Shown: one piece after another, positions 151 through 41,749 of the stretch
Position numbering within the stretch: position 1 is the stretch's first letter
Layout: the number at the start of each line of letters is the position of its first letter
DNA from: Rhodocytophaga aerolata
Lineage (GTDB): Bacteria; Bacteroidota; Bacteroidia; Cytophagales; 172606-1
Assembly: GCF_030503435.1 (NCBI RefSeq)
Contig: NZ_JAUKPO010000016.1
Location: forward strand, 1-64,000
DNA length: 64,000 bases
Direction: 5' to 3'
Made by a program: the position numbers and the translations under genes
Notes under the pieces: model-generated
Databases searched by the model: none
The model's input: the letters and a program-made list of their open reading frames with translations, nothing else
What the model was told of the DNA's origin: nothing

Positions 151-3100
151 TTACCTCTGTACTTCCCAGGAAGGTGCCGTGCTTGGAGCAGGCAAATTAG
201 GTTTATTGCCAAAGCGTTTTTTTACTTTTGAAATAACTCTCTCAAAGGTCATATAGGCAGAGGGTACTAATACCAGAGTTAAGAGCAAAGAACTGGTCAA
301 TCCCCCAATAATTACCCAGGCCAGGCCATTTTTCGTTTCAGCGCCTGCACCGGATGCCAAAGCAATGGGCAACATACCGAACACCATCGCCAGGGTAGTC
401 ATTAAGATAGGACGCAGACGTTCCCGGCCTGCTTCTATCAGCGCCTCACGCACAGCCATGCCTTTTTCGCGCAAGTGGTTGGTAAAGTCTACCAGCAGGA
501 TGGCATTTTTGGCTACCAGACCCATCAGCATAATCATACCAATGATAGAGAAAATACTTAGGTTTTCTCTGGCCAAGGCTAGAGCCATTAATGCACCAAT
601 TAAGGCAACTGGCAGCGAGAACAATACTATAAATGGATAGATGAATGAATCGTACAAAGCCACCATAATCAGGTAAACAAACACAATCGCAATGACCAGG
701 GCAATACCCAGACTGCTAAAGGCATCGCCTTGCTGCTGCAAACTACCAGCATATTCAATGACAATACCATCGGGCAATGTTTTCTTTTGCATAAGTGCTT
801 GTATATCTGCACCTACCGTACCAACCGGGCGTCCAACTACCTGAGAGTTAACCGTAATAGATGTAAGCCTGTCGCGACGTTCGAGTACACTGGCACCTAA
901 TTCCTGATTTACTGTCGCAAATTGTTTCAACTCTACCTGCTGACCCCGGTTGTTGACAAACATAAGCTTCTCCACATCTTCTTTGCTTGAGCGGTTAAAC
1001 TTATCGAGCGAAACCAGAATGTCGTATTCAAAACCTTCTTCCCGGTATTTGGACTGGTCGTTTCCATTGAAGGCTGTTTGCAAGGTGCTTCCTACGTCTG
1101 CCACAGACAAGCCCAGTGCCGCCATGCGTTCACGGTCGATATGTACCTGTAATTCCGGATTAGGATCTTCCACAGAAAATTCAACATCGGCTGTGCCTGG
1201 TACCTGCTTTACAACATTGAGTACAATATTGGCAGCTTCCTGTACCTTGGCTAATTCGGTACCTTTTAAGGCAATCTGGATAGGGGCCTGGTTGGCATTT
1301 CCGGTAATACCAGTAGGCGCAGCTTTCACCTGTACACCAGGAATTTTATTAATTTCTTTCTTAATCTGTGCGCCAAACTCCTCACTGCTAATGCTGCGCT
1401 CTTTTTTATCTACCAGAATTACCGTTAGTTCAGAGCGGTTGCTGGTACCTGTACTGGCTCCCATGGTAGTGCTGGAACGCCCTACCTGGCTCAACACCAG
1501 TTTCACTTCCGGGCGTTTCCGGATAAGGTCTTCTACCTGTTTGGTGATCTGATTATTCTGATATACGGTTACCTGTGGGTCCATTTTCAGGGATACAACT
1601 ATTTCTCCACGGTCGCCCTGCGCTGTAAATTCACTTCCGATAAACCCAAGCGGAACCAACGCAATAGAACCTACAAACAGAATAAAGGAAACCAGATAAA
1701 TTGCCCAGCGGTGACTTAACGCCCATTGTAAGATGCGGGTATATGCTTCTTGTAACGAATTAAAACCTCTTTCAAAGCCCAGAGATATACGGCCCCAAAG
1801 CGTCTTATTGGTAAAATGGTCCAACTTACCAAAGCGGGAAGCCAGCATTGGCGTAATGGTAAAAGACACAAATAAACTCATTAGGGTAGAAAATACTACC
1901 ACCAGCGAAAACTCGCGTACGATGTTACCAATCAACCCGGAAACTACAGACATTGGCAAGAACACCACCACGTCTACCAAGGTAATGGCAAGGGCTGTAA
2001 AACCAATTTCATTCCGTCCATCCAGGGCAGCCGTGCGTTTGTCTTTGCCCATTTCCATGTGGCGGTAAATGTTTTCCAACACCACAATGGAGTCATCCAC
2101 CAGAATACCTACCACCAGCGAAAGAGCCATCAACGTCATCAGGTTGAGCGAGAAGCCCATTACATACATCAGAATAAAGGTAGATATCATAGAGGTTGGT
2201 AAGGCCACCATAACAATGAGTGAGCTACGCAAACTATGCAGGAATACCAGCATTACCCCTGCCACAATAACAACTGCCAGCATCAGGTCAAACTGTACAG
2301 CATCGGCAGAGGCAAGGGTATAGGTAGACGTATCGTTGGCAATGCTGAATTTTACTCCTTCGGCCGCATACATCCGTTCAACGTTTGCCAGTTCTGCCCG
2401 TATTTTCTCACTTACATCCACCGCATTCGCATCGGCTTGTTTCTGAATGATAATACCAATGGATGAGCGGCCATCTATGCGGTTCAACGTCGTAATTTCG
2501 GCTACACCATCTACCACTTCTGCTACGTCTCCAACGGTAATGCGGCTTCCACTCGGCTGATAGGATACAACCAGGTTACGTATTTGATCAAGTGAAGCAA
2601 ACTTTGCGGCTACCCGCAGGCTGTATTGCTGCTCCGTAGTTTCTACCTTTCCGGTAGGGAAATCCTGATTAGCACTGATAATAGCTTGGGTTACCTGATT
2701 TAGAGAAAGGCCATATGCTTTTAACTTTTCCAGATTTGCATTCACCTGGATCTCACGTTCCTGGCCACCAACCAGTGTAATCTGGCCAACACCTTGTACT
2801 TTAGCTAACTGTGGCTGTATCCGGTCTTCTACCAGCTTATAAAACTGAGTAGGGCTTACATTACCAGATATTCCCAGCTGCAATACTGGCAAATCACCGG
2901 TAGAGAATTTGTTTATAGTTGGGGCATCTACCTCATCTGGCATCTGGGCCATTACCGCATTTACTTTGCGCTGGGCATCCTGTACGGCCTGGTCTATGTC
3001 TGCTGACTGTAACAACTGAATCACTACCAACGATACTCCTTCCCGGGAGGTAGACTGAATTTTATCCAGATTTTCCAGAGAGGAAAGAGCATCTTCCAGC

Positions 3101-3297
3101 TTTTTCGTAACAGATGTTTCCACCTCGCCAGCTGCTGCACCAGGATATACCGTAACAATGGACATTACGGGCGCCTCAAATTCGGGAAGCAGGTTATAAT
3201 TCAGATTAGAGTAACTAATCATCCCAAGAATACCTAGCACGGTAAAAATTACAATGACCAGTGCCGGGCGTTTAATGGATATTTCGGTTATTGACAT
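151..3297 (-). CDS. RND efflux permease (HAE1/AcrB-like), inner membrane
   Basis: This is the proton-driven inner-membrane pump of a tripartite drug/solvent efflux system. The 1048-residue length is typical of the hydrophobe/amphiphile exporter (HAE1) family. The N-terminus (SITEISIKRPALVIVIFTVLG) runs into TM1. The TM4 acidic pair D401-D402, within a GILVDDSIVVLEN segment, corresponds to the AcrB proton-relay aspartates D407/D408. A second hydrophobic block (about 860-1030) repeats the first, as expected from the internal duplication. It is the last gene of a minus-strand operon TetR-TolC-MFP-RND, 63 bp after the adaptor gene. The substrate cannot be read from the sequence. The family call is secure. 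Confidence 0.95.
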   Translation of the reverse strand: MSITEISIKRPALVIVIFTVLGILGMISYSNLNYNLLPEFEAPVMSIVTVYPGAAAGEVETSVTKKLEDALSSLENLDKIQSTSREGVSLVVIQLLQSADIDQAVQDAQRKVNAVMAQMPDEVDAPTINKFSTGDLPVLQLGISGNVSPTQFYKLVEDRIQPQLAKVQGVGQITLVGGQEREIQVNANLEKLKAYGLSLNQVTQAIISANQDFPTGKVETTEQQYSLRVAAKFASLDQIRNLVVSYQPSGSRITVGDVAEVVDGVAEITTLNRIDGRSSIGIIIQKQADANAVDVSEKIRAELANVERMYAAEGVKFSIANDTSTYTLASADAVQFDLMLAVVIVAGVMLVFLHSLRSSLIVMVALPTSMISTFILMYVMGFSLNLMTLMALSLVVGILVDDSIVVLENIYRHMEMGKDKRTAALDGRNEIGFTALAITLVDVVVFLPMSVVSGLIGNIVREFSLVVVFSTLMSLFVSFTITPMLASRFGKLDHFTNKTLWGRISLGFERGFNSLQEAYTRILQWALSHRWAIYLVSFILFVGSIALVPLGFIGSEFTAQGDRGEIVVSLKMDPQVTVYQNNQITKQVEDLIRKRPEVKLVLSQVGRSSTTMGASTGTSNRSELTVILVDKKERSISSEEFGAQIKKEINKIPGVQVKAAPTGITGNANQAPIQIALKGTELAKVQEAANIVLNVVKQVPGTADVEFSVEDPNPELQVHIDRERMAALGLSVADVGSTLQTAFNGNDQSKYREEGFEYDILVSLDKFNRSSKEDVEKLMFVNNRGQQVELKQFATVNQELGASVLERRDRLTSITVNSQVVGRPVGTVGADIQALMQKKTLPDGIVIEYAGSLQQQGDAFSSLGIALVIAIVFVYLIMVALYDSFIYPFIVLFSLPVALIGALMALALARENLSIFSIIGMIMLMGLVAKNAILLVDFTNHLREKGMAVREALIEAGRERLRPILMTTLAMVFGMLPIALASGAGAETKNGLAWVIIGGLTSSLLLTLVLVPSAYMTFERVISKVKKRFGNKPNLPAPSTAPSWEVQR

Positions 3298-3360
3298 TTT
3301 GTTGATTTCCTGTTAAATGATTGTTCGATTAAATCAGTATTGGCTGACATACTTTCCCGA

Positions 3361-4497
3361 TTACTGATTCATGCTAGATGTATTACCAGAGGCAGCTGCC
3401 TTACCAGTGTCTTGAGCTGTTACACCGTTTTGAGCACCCGATTGGATAATGCTTACCTTGGTGCTGTCTGCCAGGTTGATCTGCCCGGTAGTAACTACCC
3501 GTTCGCCTTCCTGCAATCCTTCTTGTACTTCCAGATAGCTGCCATTATCGGCACCTACGGTTATTTTCTTTAACTTAGCTACATTGTTCTGGTCTACCAC
3601 ATATACTTTGGCATCACGGATACTACCCACCAGGGCATCTCTTGGAATTTGCAACGTAGGAACCTGGCTTTTCCGGTTAAAGGCTGTATTTACATAGGTA
3701 CCAGCTTTCAAAGTATATTTGCTCTGGTTGTTGAAAGCAATTTCTACCGGATAATTATGGGCATCGTCGCCACGTGGGCTGATAAACGTAATTTTACCTT
3801 CATAAGTAACGCCAGGAAATACGGTAGCAGTAATTTGTACAGGATCACCCACTTTTAATGCATACACATCATTTTCAGCAACATTCAACTGCACTTTCAG
3901 GCGGGATACGTCTACTACCGTAACAATAGAAGTACCGATGTTTACAAAGGCTCCGGCCTCTACGGCTTTCTGCGTAATCTGTCCGCTGATTGGCGCTCTG
4001 ACAACTGCGTTAGATAACTGTTTGCGGGCTTGTTCTACAGCAATTTGTGCATTTTCGAAGCCTAGTTTATACTGATCGTATTGTGCTTGTGTAGCCGCTC
4101 CTCCTTCAAATAGGTTCTTATACCGCTCCAGGTTCTGTTTGGCATCCGCTAGCTGTTGTTCCGCATTTGCTACCGCTAAGGCCTGTAGTTTATTGTCAAT
4201 GCGTCCGATCACCTGACCCTTTTTTACTTCATCACCCAGGTCTACATTCAGGCTAAGTAAGTTGCCCTGTACTTCCGCCTTTATTTCTATTACCTGATTG
4301 GCAGCTACAGTACCAATCATGCTCAAATTTCTCTCGCTGATCCGGTTTTGCACTGGCGCTACATTGACGGCAACGGCTACATTGGTATTATCCGGTAATT
4401 TATTCTTTTCATCAATAGCCTTTTTATTGCTTACCAGGCGGAAGGCAACTAAACCAACTACTGCTATGATGACCACTATTGTGATAATTCGTTTCAT
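3361..4497 (-). CDS. RND efflux periplasmic adaptor (MFP/HlyD family)
   Basis: This is the membrane-fusion adaptor that links the RND pump to the TolC-like channel. It has 378 residues. An N-terminal hydrophobic anchor (about 4-20, ITIVVIIAVVGLVAF) is followed by a split lipoyl/barrel-sandwich domain (GTVAANQVIEIKAEVQG...LGDEVKKGQVIGRID, then VRAPISGQITQKAVEAGAFV), with a helical hairpin of about 70 residues between the halves. A beta-barrel and a membrane-proximal domain (VVTTGQINLADSTKV) follow. There is no lipobox cysteine, so it is probably held by an uncleaved N-terminal helix. It sits between the TolC and pump genes on the same strand (37-bp and 63-bp gaps). Confidence 0.94.
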   Translation of the reverse strand: MKRIITIVVIIAVVGLVAFRLVSNKKAIDEKNKLPDNTNVAVAVNVAPVQNRISERNLSMIGTVAANQVIEIKAEVQGNLLSLNVDLGDEVKKGQVIGRIDNKLQALAVANAEQQLADAKQNLERYKNLFEGGAATQAQYDQYKLGFENAQIAVEQARKQLSNAVVRAPISGQITQKAVEAGAFVNIGTSIVTVVDVSRLKVQLNVAENDVYALKVGDPVQITATVFPGVTYEGKITFISPRGDDAHNYPVEIAFNNQSKYTLKAGTYVNTAFNRKSQVPTLQIPRDALVGSIRDAKVYVVDQNNVAKLKKITVGADNGSYLEVQEGLQEGERVVTTGQINLADSTKVSIIQSGAQNGVTAQDTGKAAASGNTSSMNQ

Positions 4498-38931: not shown

Positions 38932-40635
38932 ATGAGTTCATCCACCACCACTACTACCACATCTCCTTCTACAAATACTGAATCTTGGGGCTCCAGAGTG
39001 GGGTTGATCCTGGCCATGGCCGGAAACGCAGTTGGACTTGGCAATTTTCTTCGCTTTCCGGTACAAGCAGTGCAAAACGGGGGCGGTGCCTTCATTATTC
39101 CTTACCTGATCTGCTTCCTGTTGATGGGTGTTCCTTTATTATGGATTGAGTGGTCTATGGGACGCTTTGGAGGTAAACATGGGCATCATTCTACGCCCTT
39201 TATCCTGGACACCATGGACAGGCGAAGTTTCTGGAAATACATAGGGGTGTTTGGCATATTTACCAATATTGCAGTAGCCTCCTATTACTGTTATCTGGAA
39301 AGCTGGACCATGTCCTATGTATTCCATTCGGTGGCAGGTACTTTTGCAGGAATGGATCAGGGGCAGGTAGCTAGCTTTTTTGAAAAATATGTAGATGTTG
39401 GCGTATCCACTACTGGTATCCCTTATGAAGCAGTTATTTTCTTTTTACTGTGTTTAATTCTAAATACCTGGATATTAAGTAAAGGATTAAGTGGAGGGGT
39501 TGAAAAAGCTGCCAAAATTGGTATGCCGCTGTTAATCTTGTTTGGGGTATTCCTTGCGTATAAAGGTATTACCCTGCAAGCCGGTAAAGAGGGTGCACTG
39601 TTTGGTGGTTCAGTAGGTTTAAATTTCCTCTGGACGCCTCAGTTTGACTCGTTGGCAAATCCTAAAGTGTGGTTGGCGGCCGCTGGCCAGATATTCTTTA
39701 CCTTATCTGTTGGTATGGGTACTATTCAGTGTTACGCTTCGTATGTGAGTAAAAAAGATGATATAGCGCTTAATGCCATGTCTGCCGGATGGATGAACGA
39801 GTTTGTGGAAGTAGTATTAGGCAGCGCCATTCTGATTCCTATTTCTGTTGGCTATCTGGGTATAGACAGGGTAATTGAGCTGACCGCTAGTGGAGGCCTT
39901 GGCCTTGGTTTCCGTACCATGCCCTTTCTGTTTAGCCAATGGGGAACCTTTATTGGTGCTTTTGCTGGAGTAGCTTTCTTTGGTTTGTTATTCTTTGCAG
40001 GTATTACCTCTTCATTAGCTATGGGTACTCCCTGGATGGGTTTTATGCAGGATGAGTTCAAGTGGACACGTGAAAAAGCTGCCCTTTCTTTTGGAATCAT
40101 TGTACTTATTTTAGGCTTACCTACTGTTCTGTTCTTTAACGAAGGGGTATTTGATGAGTATGATTATTGGGCCGGTACGGTTTCGCTGGTAGTTTTTGCC
40201 TTAGCGGAAACCATTCTGTTTGCCTGGGTTTTCGGAATGACCAAAGGCTGGAAAGAAATAAATGATGGGGCCGATCTGAAAGTACCCTCTTTTTACAAGT
40301 TCGTCATTAAATGGATTACGCCTTTCTTGTTGATATTTGTTTTTGTTGGTTCATTAATTGGACCGGCCGGCGGAGATTGGGGGGCTGCCTTTGCAGGTTT
40401 AGGCAATGGAGAAGGATGGAATCTGGATAACGGCTCTATCATTGCTCAACTGATGAACAAAGGTATAAAACAGCAAATAGCCGCTACAACAGACTCAGCT
40501 CTTGTTGAATCCCTGGAAAGCAGAATTACTTATATTAATGGAGCCAGGTTATTGCTGTTAGCTGTATTTCTAACAGCAGCTTACTTGGTGTTTGTGGCTT
40601 ATAAAAAACGTATTAGAGAAGGGAGATTTTCGTAA
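38932..40635 (+). CDS. NSS family sodium-dependent amino-acid transporter
   Basis: A 567-residue neurotransmitter:sodium-symporter family protein with about 12 transmembrane segments. TM1 carries the family signature NAVGLGNFLRFPVQAVQNGGGAF (split here as GNAVGLGNFLRF and QNGGGAF), which forms the Na+ and substrate site. The N-terminus is a short Ser/Thr-rich tail. The substrate is unknown, but relatives with a small partner gene import methionine/alanine. Its TAA shares a base with the ATG of a 48-codon ORF that encodes a likely small subunit. Confidence 0.93.
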   Translation: MSSSTTTTTTSPSTNTESWGSRVGLILAMAGNAVGLGNFLRFPVQAVQNGGGAFIIPYLICFLLMGVPLLWIEWSMGRFGGKHGHHSTPFILDTMDRRSFWKYIGVFGIFTNIAVASYYCYLESWTMSYVFHSVAGTFAGMDQGQVASFFEKYVDVGVSTTGIPYEAVIFFLLCLILNTWILSKGLSGGVEKAAKIGMPLLILFGVFLAYKGITLQAGKEGALFGGSVGLNFLWTPQFDSLANPKVWLAAAGQIFFTLSVGMGTIQCYASYVSKKDDIALNAMSAGWMNEFVEVVLGSAILIPISVGYLGIDRVIELTASGGLGLGFRTMPFLFSQWGTFIGAFAGVAFFGLLFFAGITSSLAMGTPWMGFMQDEFKWTREKAALSFGIIVLILGLPTVLFFNEGVFDEYDYWAGTVSLVVFALAETILFAWVFGMTKGWKEINDGADLKVPSFYKFVIKWITPFLLIFVFVGSLIGPAGGDWGAAFAGLGNGEGWNLDNGSIIAQLMNKGIKQQIAATTDSALVESLESRITYINGARLLLLAVFLTAAYLVFVAYKKRIREGRFS

Positions 40636-40781
40636 TGAATTCAAGTGCTTTAGTTATGATGGTGGCTACACAGCTGATAGTTACGGGCTTTACCGGCTAT
40701 TTCTTTTACAGAGTGTTAACTGGTAAGCCCAGTACGGAACCAGACTCATTTTCAGAAAATGACGATGAACCCAGAACCTAA
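40635..40781 (+). CDS. 48-residue single-pass membrane peptide, probable NSS transporter small subunit (MetS-like)
   Basis: A short ORF that length-filtered gene calling misses. It starts in the transporter's stop (TAATG, 1-nt overlap), which implies coupled translation. The sequence has one hydrophobic helix (ALVMMVATQLIVTGFTGYFF, about 5-24), a short basic hinge (YRVLTGK) and an acidic tail (EPDSFSENDDEP). Size, N-terminus (SSALVMM) and position match the small subunits described for actinobacterial MetP/MetS methionine importers (family knowledge); sequence identity was not tested. I infer that it stabilises or activates the transporter. Confidence 0.75.
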   Translation: MNSSALVMMVATQLIVTGFTGYFFYRVLTGKPSTEPDSFSENDDEPRT

Positions 40782-40804: not shown

Positions 40805-41749
40805 ATGAAAAAAGTAAAGTATTGGCTCCGTAACGTTTTTGGCTTTTCCGGGAAAGAAATCAGTGGATTTGGTGTGCTTACAATAATCCTGGTGTTGGCA
40901 GTAGCCGCACCTTTTTTTGCTAACCTCCTGTATTCCGGCAAACGTGCAGAGGCTACTGCAGATATTCGTAAGCTGGATAGTTTAAAAGCCCTACTGCAAG
41001 AATCCACGGCCAACTCTTCCGATATTCAAGCGGCTGTTCCCTCACCCTCCGATAGTTTTCCAATAAGTTCTTTCAATCCCAATGATCTTTCTGTGGATCA
41101 ATGGCAGACATTAGGGCTTCAACAAACCATAGCACAGCGGATTAGTAATTACCGGCAAAAGGGAGGTACATTCCGGATAAAATCAGATTTGCTAAAAATA
41201 TATGGCTTTCCGGCGGAAATATACGCACAACTGAAACCCTATCTCCTCTTACCTGACTCTCTCACCTACACAAAGAAAGAATATTCAACTACTCCATCTG
41301 CTAAGATTGAAAAACGTGTTACGCCGGAAGCAAAACCTGAAAAAGAGGTATTGTCTTTTGATTTAAACCTGGCAGATAGTACACAATTAGTTCAACTAAA
41401 AGGGATAGGACCTGGTTTATCCAGAAGAATTATTACTTACCGGAATAAGTTAGGCGGTTTTTACACAAGCAACCAATTAAGAGAAGTGTACGGCCTTGAC
41501 TCAGTTGTGGTAGAGGAAGTGTTAAAACATGGGTATATCAAAACTCCCATCTTGCAACAAATCCCTATTAATTCGGCCACAGTACAGGAATTAGATGCCC
41601 ATCCATACATTACTCCCAAAATTGCCAACATAATTGTCGACTTCAGAAAACAACATGGAAAGTACACAAGTCTAGAGAATCTTTATCAGATACGTGCGTT
41701 GGATAAAGGGACCTTGGATAAATTAGCTCCCTATCTTAGCTTTGATTAA
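40805..41749 (+). CDS. Helix-hairpin-helix protein with N-terminal membrane anchor (ComEA-like)
   Basis: 314 residues. One membrane segment (about 24-40, LTIILVLAVAAPFFANLL) is followed by a low-complexity linker and three helix-hairpin-helix units: about 97-150 (FNPNDLSVDQWQTLGL...QRISNYRQKGG), about 195-245 (LNLADSTQLVQLKGIGPGLSRRIITYRNKLGGF) and about 255-314 (INSATVQELDAHPYITPKIANIIVDFRKQHG). HhH units bind DNA or proteins; membrane-anchored forms resemble ComEA DNA-uptake receptors. No other competence genes are nearby, so DNA uptake is only a possibility. Confidence 0.83.
   Translation: MKKVKYWLRNVFGFSGKEISGFGVLTIILVLAVAAPFFANLLYSGKRAEATADIRKLDSLKALLQESTANSSDIQAAVPSPSDSFPISSFNPNDLSVDQWQTLGLQQTIAQRISNYRQKGGTFRIKSDLLKIYGFPAEIYAQLKPYLLLPDSLTYTKKEYSTTPSAKIEKRVTPEAKPEKEVLSFDLNLADSTQLVQLKGIGPGLSRRIITYRNKLGGFYTSNQLREVYGLDSVVVEEVLKHGYIKTPILQQIPINSATVQELDAHPYITPKIANIIVDFRKQHGKYTSLENLYQIRALDKGTLDKLAPYLSFD

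Follow-up and report, generated by a model that had tools for sequence, protein, structure and literature searches.

The window (the whole 64,000-nucleotide stretch of Rhodocytophaga aerolata DNA analysed here) carries on its forward strand an NSS transporter gene at 38932-40635, encoding a 12-helix LeuT-type protein of 567 amino acids, the putative large subunit of a two-part system. The first-pass annotation had called this upstream ORF an NSS transporter, and the match to PF00209 (E 4.2e-56) bears it out. Directly behind, on the same strand, lies a 48-codon ORF (40635-40781, 40781 being the last base of its stop codon) that encodes MNSSALVMMVATQLIVTGFTGYFFYRVLTGKPSTEPDSFSENDDEPRT and that we propose to be the small subunit gene. 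As described earlier, this ORF starts inside the transporter stop: in the TAATG at 40633-40637 (forward strand) the last base of the NSS stop codon TAA (40633-40635) is the first base of the small-ORF ATG (40635-40637). The same annotation had seen one transmembrane helix with a basic hinge and an acidic tail. The helix and the tail stand: as judged by hydrophobicity, a single helix spans approximately residues 5-28 (codons 40647-40718, forward strand), with a single conserved face according to the conservation moment, and a conserved acidic tail (EPDSFSENDDEPRT) occupies residues 35-48 (codons 40737-40778, forward strand). The hinge is mild in the window copy. Residues R26, K31 and P32 precede the acidic E35, D37, E41, D43, D44 and E45, and the two basic residues compare with a family mean of 2.5 K/R in residues 24-34 over 135 pairs. 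The consensus of the small family reads M(N)TSALI.M..TQ..VT.IT.YFF.KVL.TPPKPEPDSY.END.

With the large chain as the only query, the best PDB matches of the window NSS are LeuT entries (E 2.9e-123), with 208 of 448 aligned residues identical (46%). All nine positions that we take to be the Na1/Na2 ligand positions of LeuT are identical in the window NSS. The PF00209 match, the Na1/Na2 ligands and a place in one clade with LeuT, the marks of the LeuT clade of NSS/SLC6 transporters, are all found in this protein. LeuT of Aquifex aeolicus (PDB 2a65, 3qs6 and others) is its close counterpart in identity (46%), Na+ ligands and clade, but differs in that the stretch between helices 11 and 12 is longer in the window NSS. 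The alignment with LeuT stops at LeuT 464; beyond it the window NSS continues for 96 residues that contain a hydrophobic stretch, and its residues 539-563 align weakly with LeuT 487-511. On the basis of this hydrophobic stretch and weak alignment we place the predicted 12th-helix codons at 40540-40614 on the forward strand (approximately residues 537-561), a segment that is absent from 11-helix NSS.

To score small ORFs uniformly we used a fixed rule: an ATG ORF of 28-60 codons with a hydrophobic N-terminal helix, starting at -20 to +130 of the stop codon of the gene upstream. Behind the 44 window ORFs of at least 200 amino acids the rule gave a single match, the ORF at 40635-40781, and this baseline of 1/44 places the ORF above chance. 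In other genomes an NSS match at E<=0.001 was obtained in 17 of 39 (the window's own genome counted). Upon reading the downstream DNA, the same small protein was found behind the nearest NSS in six loci (L002, L003, L005, L006, L007 and L009) and was not found behind the NSS of L004, L008 and L018 or behind 13 distant NSS (~30% identical). At E<=0.1, a first profile built from seven small-protein sequences matched in 92 of the 295 genomes surveyed from the window's class; 55 matches, spread over 54 genomes, were at E<=1e-4. When the same 295 genomes were searched with the window NSS, 56 places were found at E<=1e-100, and 50 of them have a small match directly downstream, so the conserved short ORF that the first-pass annotation proposed to look for behind NSS genes is indeed there. 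Among the other six places, two (G270 and G085) carry a divergent one-helix ORF missed by the profile, one (G225) stops at the contig edge, and three have no small ORF, namely G154, G215 and the additional NSS of the window genome.

When GTDB contigs were scanned with two family peptide patterns as bait (one at the helix end and one in the tail), 216 places were confirmed; among the best 80 of the 216, 79 titles name Bacteroidota taxa and one (L072) reads 'Bacterium isolate' only. Since these loci were baited, conservation is also given from loci found otherwise: among 36 loci obtained with no tail bait, 28 have the PDS motif of the tail and 8 lack it, with the helix kept. All but one of the 118 loci that gave a small match have an NSS gene directly upstream on the same strand. 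Some places are counted twice, the 117 pairs containing 105 distinct small genes. The exception, L116, sits 312 bases into its contig, and the contig start reads as an NSS-like C-terminal end. In these pairs, which are not all distinct places, the gap between the two genes is -4 (ATGA) in 59 of 117 and -1 (TAATG) in 5 of 117. A plasmid search with one small protein of the family gave no match. The small protein is widespread in the window's class and widely conserved.

It could be supposed that a self-standing small membrane protein with partners of its own is merely parked behind NSS genes, and copies away from NSS do exist, next to CitMHS-type genes (L177, and L181 with its frame broken), panD (L180), and RidA and a helix-hairpin-helix gene (L179). 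However, 50 of the 55 confident matches sit behind a close NSS, and of the other five, L178 lies behind a shortened NSS frame and L181 is the broken copy; we regard this explanation as very improbable.

The five confident family members that have no full-length close NSS ahead of them, and several other unusual copies, deserve a description of their own. In L178 a shortened NSS frame (2813-3487, 225 amino acids stop to stop, with a weak PF00209 match) is followed by an open small frame at 3469-3621. The members in L177 (3718-3885) and L181 (~3744-4013) are near CitMHS-type (Pfam) transporter genes rather than NSS genes, and are possibly small partners of another transporter. Tail-less relatives are encoded on the reverse strand in L180 (2599-2736, MTTTALIFWLS..., behind panD) and L187 (1184-1306, MTTSALITWLF..., behind a WGR-domain gene). 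A third sequence type, a divergent one-helix ORF of the form M(K)(P/L)ESL.LMLIINGITIYFVIKFLWKV that was missed by the first profile, lies behind LeuT-clade NSS in L183 and L184; the L183 form gave no match against NCBIfam at E<=1. In the window, the gene at 40805-41749, next after the NSS and its small ORF, encodes a helix-hairpin-helix protein; such a gene also follows the small copy without NSS in L179 (3670-3849), which has RidA on its other side, and, in Bacteroides finegoldii (L198, 2847-3761), an 11-helix NSS. This may reflect an ancient gene neighbourhood where one type of transporter replaced another. Finally, the window's own genome contains a second NSS (L186, G000:C110:135000-141500) that is 81% identical to the window's and has no small ORF behind it; it is either partner-independent or shares the copy at 40635-40781.

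Selection on the small ORF was assessed over 36 independent pairs with pS of 0.1-0.6, which gave a pooled pN/pS of 0.45 (Fisher on pooled sites 3.5e-53), with 0.49 for residues 1-31 and 0.36 for the rest. Because the GTDB scan loci were baited, we repeated the test with loci picked by NSS alone (61 distinct small genes) and obtained a pooled pN/pS of 0.57 over 27 independent pairs with pS of 0.1-0.7, many of them near saturation (Fisher 5.6e-26). Several closer pairs display dN/dS of 0.02-0.11; the comparison of the window with its genus-mate L002 is saturated (dN 0.28, dS 2.2). One might suspect an ORF that arose by chance, or a stretch of DNA kept for coupling or terminating translation, given that the ORF is short and overlaps a stop codon and that dN/dS is 0.56 in the very close pair L006/L007, the closest of all. 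The two pooled ratios, the low dN/dS of several close pairs, residues kept at the amino-acid level across families and the rule baseline of 1/44 all speak against a non-coding origin, which we rejected and hold to be next to impossible. Neither of the outcomes that the first-pass annotation had named as fatal, a reading frame not conserved among relatives or a ratio near neutrality, was observed: the frame is conserved and both ratios lie below neutral. The ORF at 40635-40781 is a real gene, and purifying selection acts on it. The conserved residues A5, M9, V16, T20, F23 and V27 lie on one face of the helix (shuffle P 0.0026 with 105 rows and 0.0022 with the 36 rows obtained without sequence bait), the pattern expected where a helix packs against a partner protein.

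Next, we examined kinship with MetS (NF033493, MetS_like_NSS; PF16951, MaAIMP_sms), the partner of MetP in Corynebacterium glutamicum, since a MetS-type NSS partner had been proposed for this ORF along with a search by MetS profiles. That search was negative for the window protein, which is matched by neither MetS model at E<=10 and does not reach the curated cut-off of NF033493 (25 bits); against Pfam it gave no match at E<=10 and against NCBIfam only PsbN, at E 0.075. When 36 family members were compared with Pfam and NCBIfam, no model matched below E 0.002. NF033493 was the commonest NCBIfam match, weakly hitting 10 of the 36 at E<=1 (best E 0.0022), with PsbN weakly matching 7 of 36; PF16951 matched 2 of 36 (best E 0.1). 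Two members scored 11.8 and 12.6 bits against NF033493, compared to its 25-bit cut-off. An identity with PsbN (NF009650/PF02468) was rejected as a generic one-helix resemblance, the score being 12.9 bits versus the 70-bit cut-off of NF009650, and other weak one-helix family matches were likewise rejected as generic helix matches.

The window family shares with MetS a one-helix protein of ~30-60 amino acids (by hydrophobicity) whose gene lies directly behind, and often overlaps, that of a 12-helix NSS. In hhalign comparisons the two families align ungapped from M1 with a probability of 90-93% (E 1.5e-6 to 3.3e-7), over 29-31 columns only; against two Bacillota MetS alone the probability is 25%. 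None of the column shuffles (300 under each of three schemes) and none of the 263 NSS-alignment windows reached the match score, and reversed profiles fail. Unlike MetS, the window family lacks the WGG motif, which is replaced by TGF in the window protein and does not occur in the 36-row alignment, whereas W-G-G is present in the helix of all nine MetS-like rows (six over the cut-off, three just under) and of two annotated Bacillota MetS. The window family instead conserves YFF.KVL, and most members carry an acidic EPDS(Y/F)SEND tail; its NSS belong to the LeuT clade, the window NSS being 25-30% identical to those of ten MetS-linked loci. On these comparisons the small family is a probable distant relative of MetS; as judged by the curated models, it is not a member of MetS. 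What stands of the earlier proposal is thus a conserved, MetS-like protein behind an NSS gene. A Bacteroidota version is not in itself new: MetS proper, with the WGG motif, exceeds the NCBI cut-off in 6 of 247 genomes of the window's phylum, and MetS genes are already annotated behind NSS genes in two Bacillota records, Priestia and Peptoclostridium, the former with the same -1 overlap as in the window.

To place the transporters themselves, we constructed trees. In the first, 32 sampled NSS with the small protein, five without it and two with the divergent type form one clade (100/100), and 10 MetS-linked NSS fall apart from it. In two trees with LeuT, LeuT is inside a clade with the Acetoanaerobium NSS (outermost) and the window's group (100/100 and 100/99), and in the second this clade also takes in NSS from other classes of the phylum. 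Support for the fork that nests LeuT in the Acetoanaerobium branch is 89/75 and 94/92, short of the level that the tree program stars, and the program flags the Acetoanaerobium row as a long branch. On 12-helix NSS as one group the trees disagree, the phylum's MetS-linked NSS joining the 12-helix side in one (97/94) and the 11-helix side in the other (90/74). Identity to LeuT among the sampled NSS is 39-47% for the window's group versus 28-35% for 11-helix and MetS-linked NSS.

The presence of the small ORF follows the 12th helix. Among 100 NSS loci picked by the transporter alone (including seven plasmid-collection loci hand-picked for spread, and leaving out the MetS-linked loci, which had been chosen for having MetS), the fixed rule found a small ORF behind 73 of 83 12-helix NSS versus 0 of 17 11-helix NSS; the Fisher value of 1.3e-12 overstates independence, the rows being related by descent. 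The 11-helix rows comprise 13 from the window's order and four from plasmid records, and one row counted as 11-helix, the archaeal L217, has an ambiguous 38-residue tail. Three of the ten rule misses do have a small ORF (L228 and L233 by reading, L175 by profile match), as do seven of nine 12-helix places read later, so that by rule or reading the total is 83 of 92, with 9 of 92 lacking it. A phylum-wide NSS search gave matches in 39 of 296 genomes at E<=1e-70; among the 38 places outside the window genome, a one-helix ORF lies behind the NSS, by rule or reading, in 25 of the 29 at L218-L246 and in seven of the remaining nine, the later-read places already counted above. The Acetoanaerobium NSS is also followed by a one-helix ORF, of 35 codons (MTGAALGFLVITWGIVFSVVGISLKAILDSEKKKK), which no NCBIfam model matches at E<=1; viral contigs searched with this NSS gave no match. 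Taken together, these results, which go beyond the earlier annotation, suggest that the bacterial transporter group containing LeuT is normally two-part. To the stronger reading we give an even chance: the clade would be ancestrally two-subunit, 12-helix bacterial NSS having a one-helix partner that docks with the 12th helix and 11-helix NSS having none, and LeuT would have been studied without a partner that it or its ancestor had.

For the window, we consider it likely that the product of this ORF is the smaller chain of a Na+-driven amino-acid importer that consists of two subunits and belongs to the NSS family (LeuT clade), with coupled translation and one helix whose conserved face is packed on the transporter. 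The small subunit would be translated together with the large one by way of the overlapping stop and start codons, and would insert as a single helix with its N-terminus outside and the K/R-rich hinge and acidic tail inside. This topology is predicted from the positive-inside rule, the mean K/R content being 0.02 in residues 1-4 versus 2.49 in residues 24-34 across 135 family pairs. The substrate is presumably a neutral amino acid. The conserved face may pack close to helix 12 and to the transporter's basic C-terminal tail in the cytoplasm; docking on that side is suggested by the co-occurrence with the 12th helix, and the site itself is a guess. MetS is reportedly required for transport by the large subunit MetP, and is said to stabilise the complex or to tune the transport cycle. 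By analogy, the small subunit might stabilise the complex or tune the cycle here, whether through stability, coupling or gating. Since 9 of 92 12-helix NSS have no small ORF, among them the second NSS of the window genome (L018/L186, 81% identical), the small subunit is not indispensable for every 12-helix NSS, and the two-subunit design can be lost.

Covariation between the subunits was also analysed. In a first run four residue pairs exceeded the best of 20 re-pairings, and only small residue 2 with NSS residue 235 (presumably LeuT T232 in extracellular loop 3, by LeuT topology) grew with more rows (z 9.0); N2 of the small protein occurs only with T235 (86 of 86 rows). In a phylogeny-aware count this pair had P 0.03-0.05 and shared first place among 335 columns with NSS residue 538. 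Against entropy-matched controls in 36 segment tests, the transporter C-tail gave P 0.0005 with the small helix and 0/2000 with the small tail; other segments below 0.05 were TM7 (0.001), EL4 (0.017), TM12 (0.026 and 0.020), TM9 (0.034) and TM10 (0.022, with the tail). Most of these P values would fail correction, and TM12 was not the best, the C-tail and TM7 being stronger. We treat the covariation as a hint rather than as evidence of contact, and rejected it as a means of locating the docking site, the signal being weak after phylogeny and not singling out the 12th helix. An NSS end of the form GR[FILM] was found in 24 of 108 cases with the acidic tail versus 2 of 27 without, giving no clear rule.

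A different role is conceivable for the same helix: its binding to the NSS would serve solely to control how the transporter folds or is proteolysed, the tail recruiting a protease or signalling partner, so that the protein would be a co-translated regulator and not a stoichiometric subunit. The resemblance of the EPDS(Y/F)SEND tail to a docking peptide (PDS in 28 of 36 unbaited loci) and the nine 12-helix NSS without a small ORF are in line with such a role. However, the tail is missing from 8 of 36 members that retain the helix, and both synteny and profile kinship connect the family to MetS, whose system, MetPS, is described as a two-subunit NSS in PMC3219685. We regard a regulator as unlikely and favour the subunit.

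Single-helix partners also exist in eukaryotes, where collectrin and ACE2 pair with the SLC6 transporter B0AT1. The likeness noted here is one of idea, a single-helix chain on which an NSS/SLC6 transporter depends; collectrin/ACE2-type partners carry large ectodomains. Among the titles and abstract openings listed in a literature search, in which subscription journals were mostly outside coverage, none describes a small subunit of NSS transporters from the LeuT clade or from Bacteroidota. The small-protein family is widespread in the window's class yet missed by the curated Pfam and NCBIfam models searched, and the 12th NSS helix gains a possible role. LeuT is the structural paradigm and textbook model of the SLC6/NSS family. 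If the LeuT clade is two-subunit by default, the kinetics and structures of LeuT by itself may be those of a core that lacks its partner, and the questions of LeuT's stoichiometry, oligomeric state and slow turnover would gain a testable new variable.
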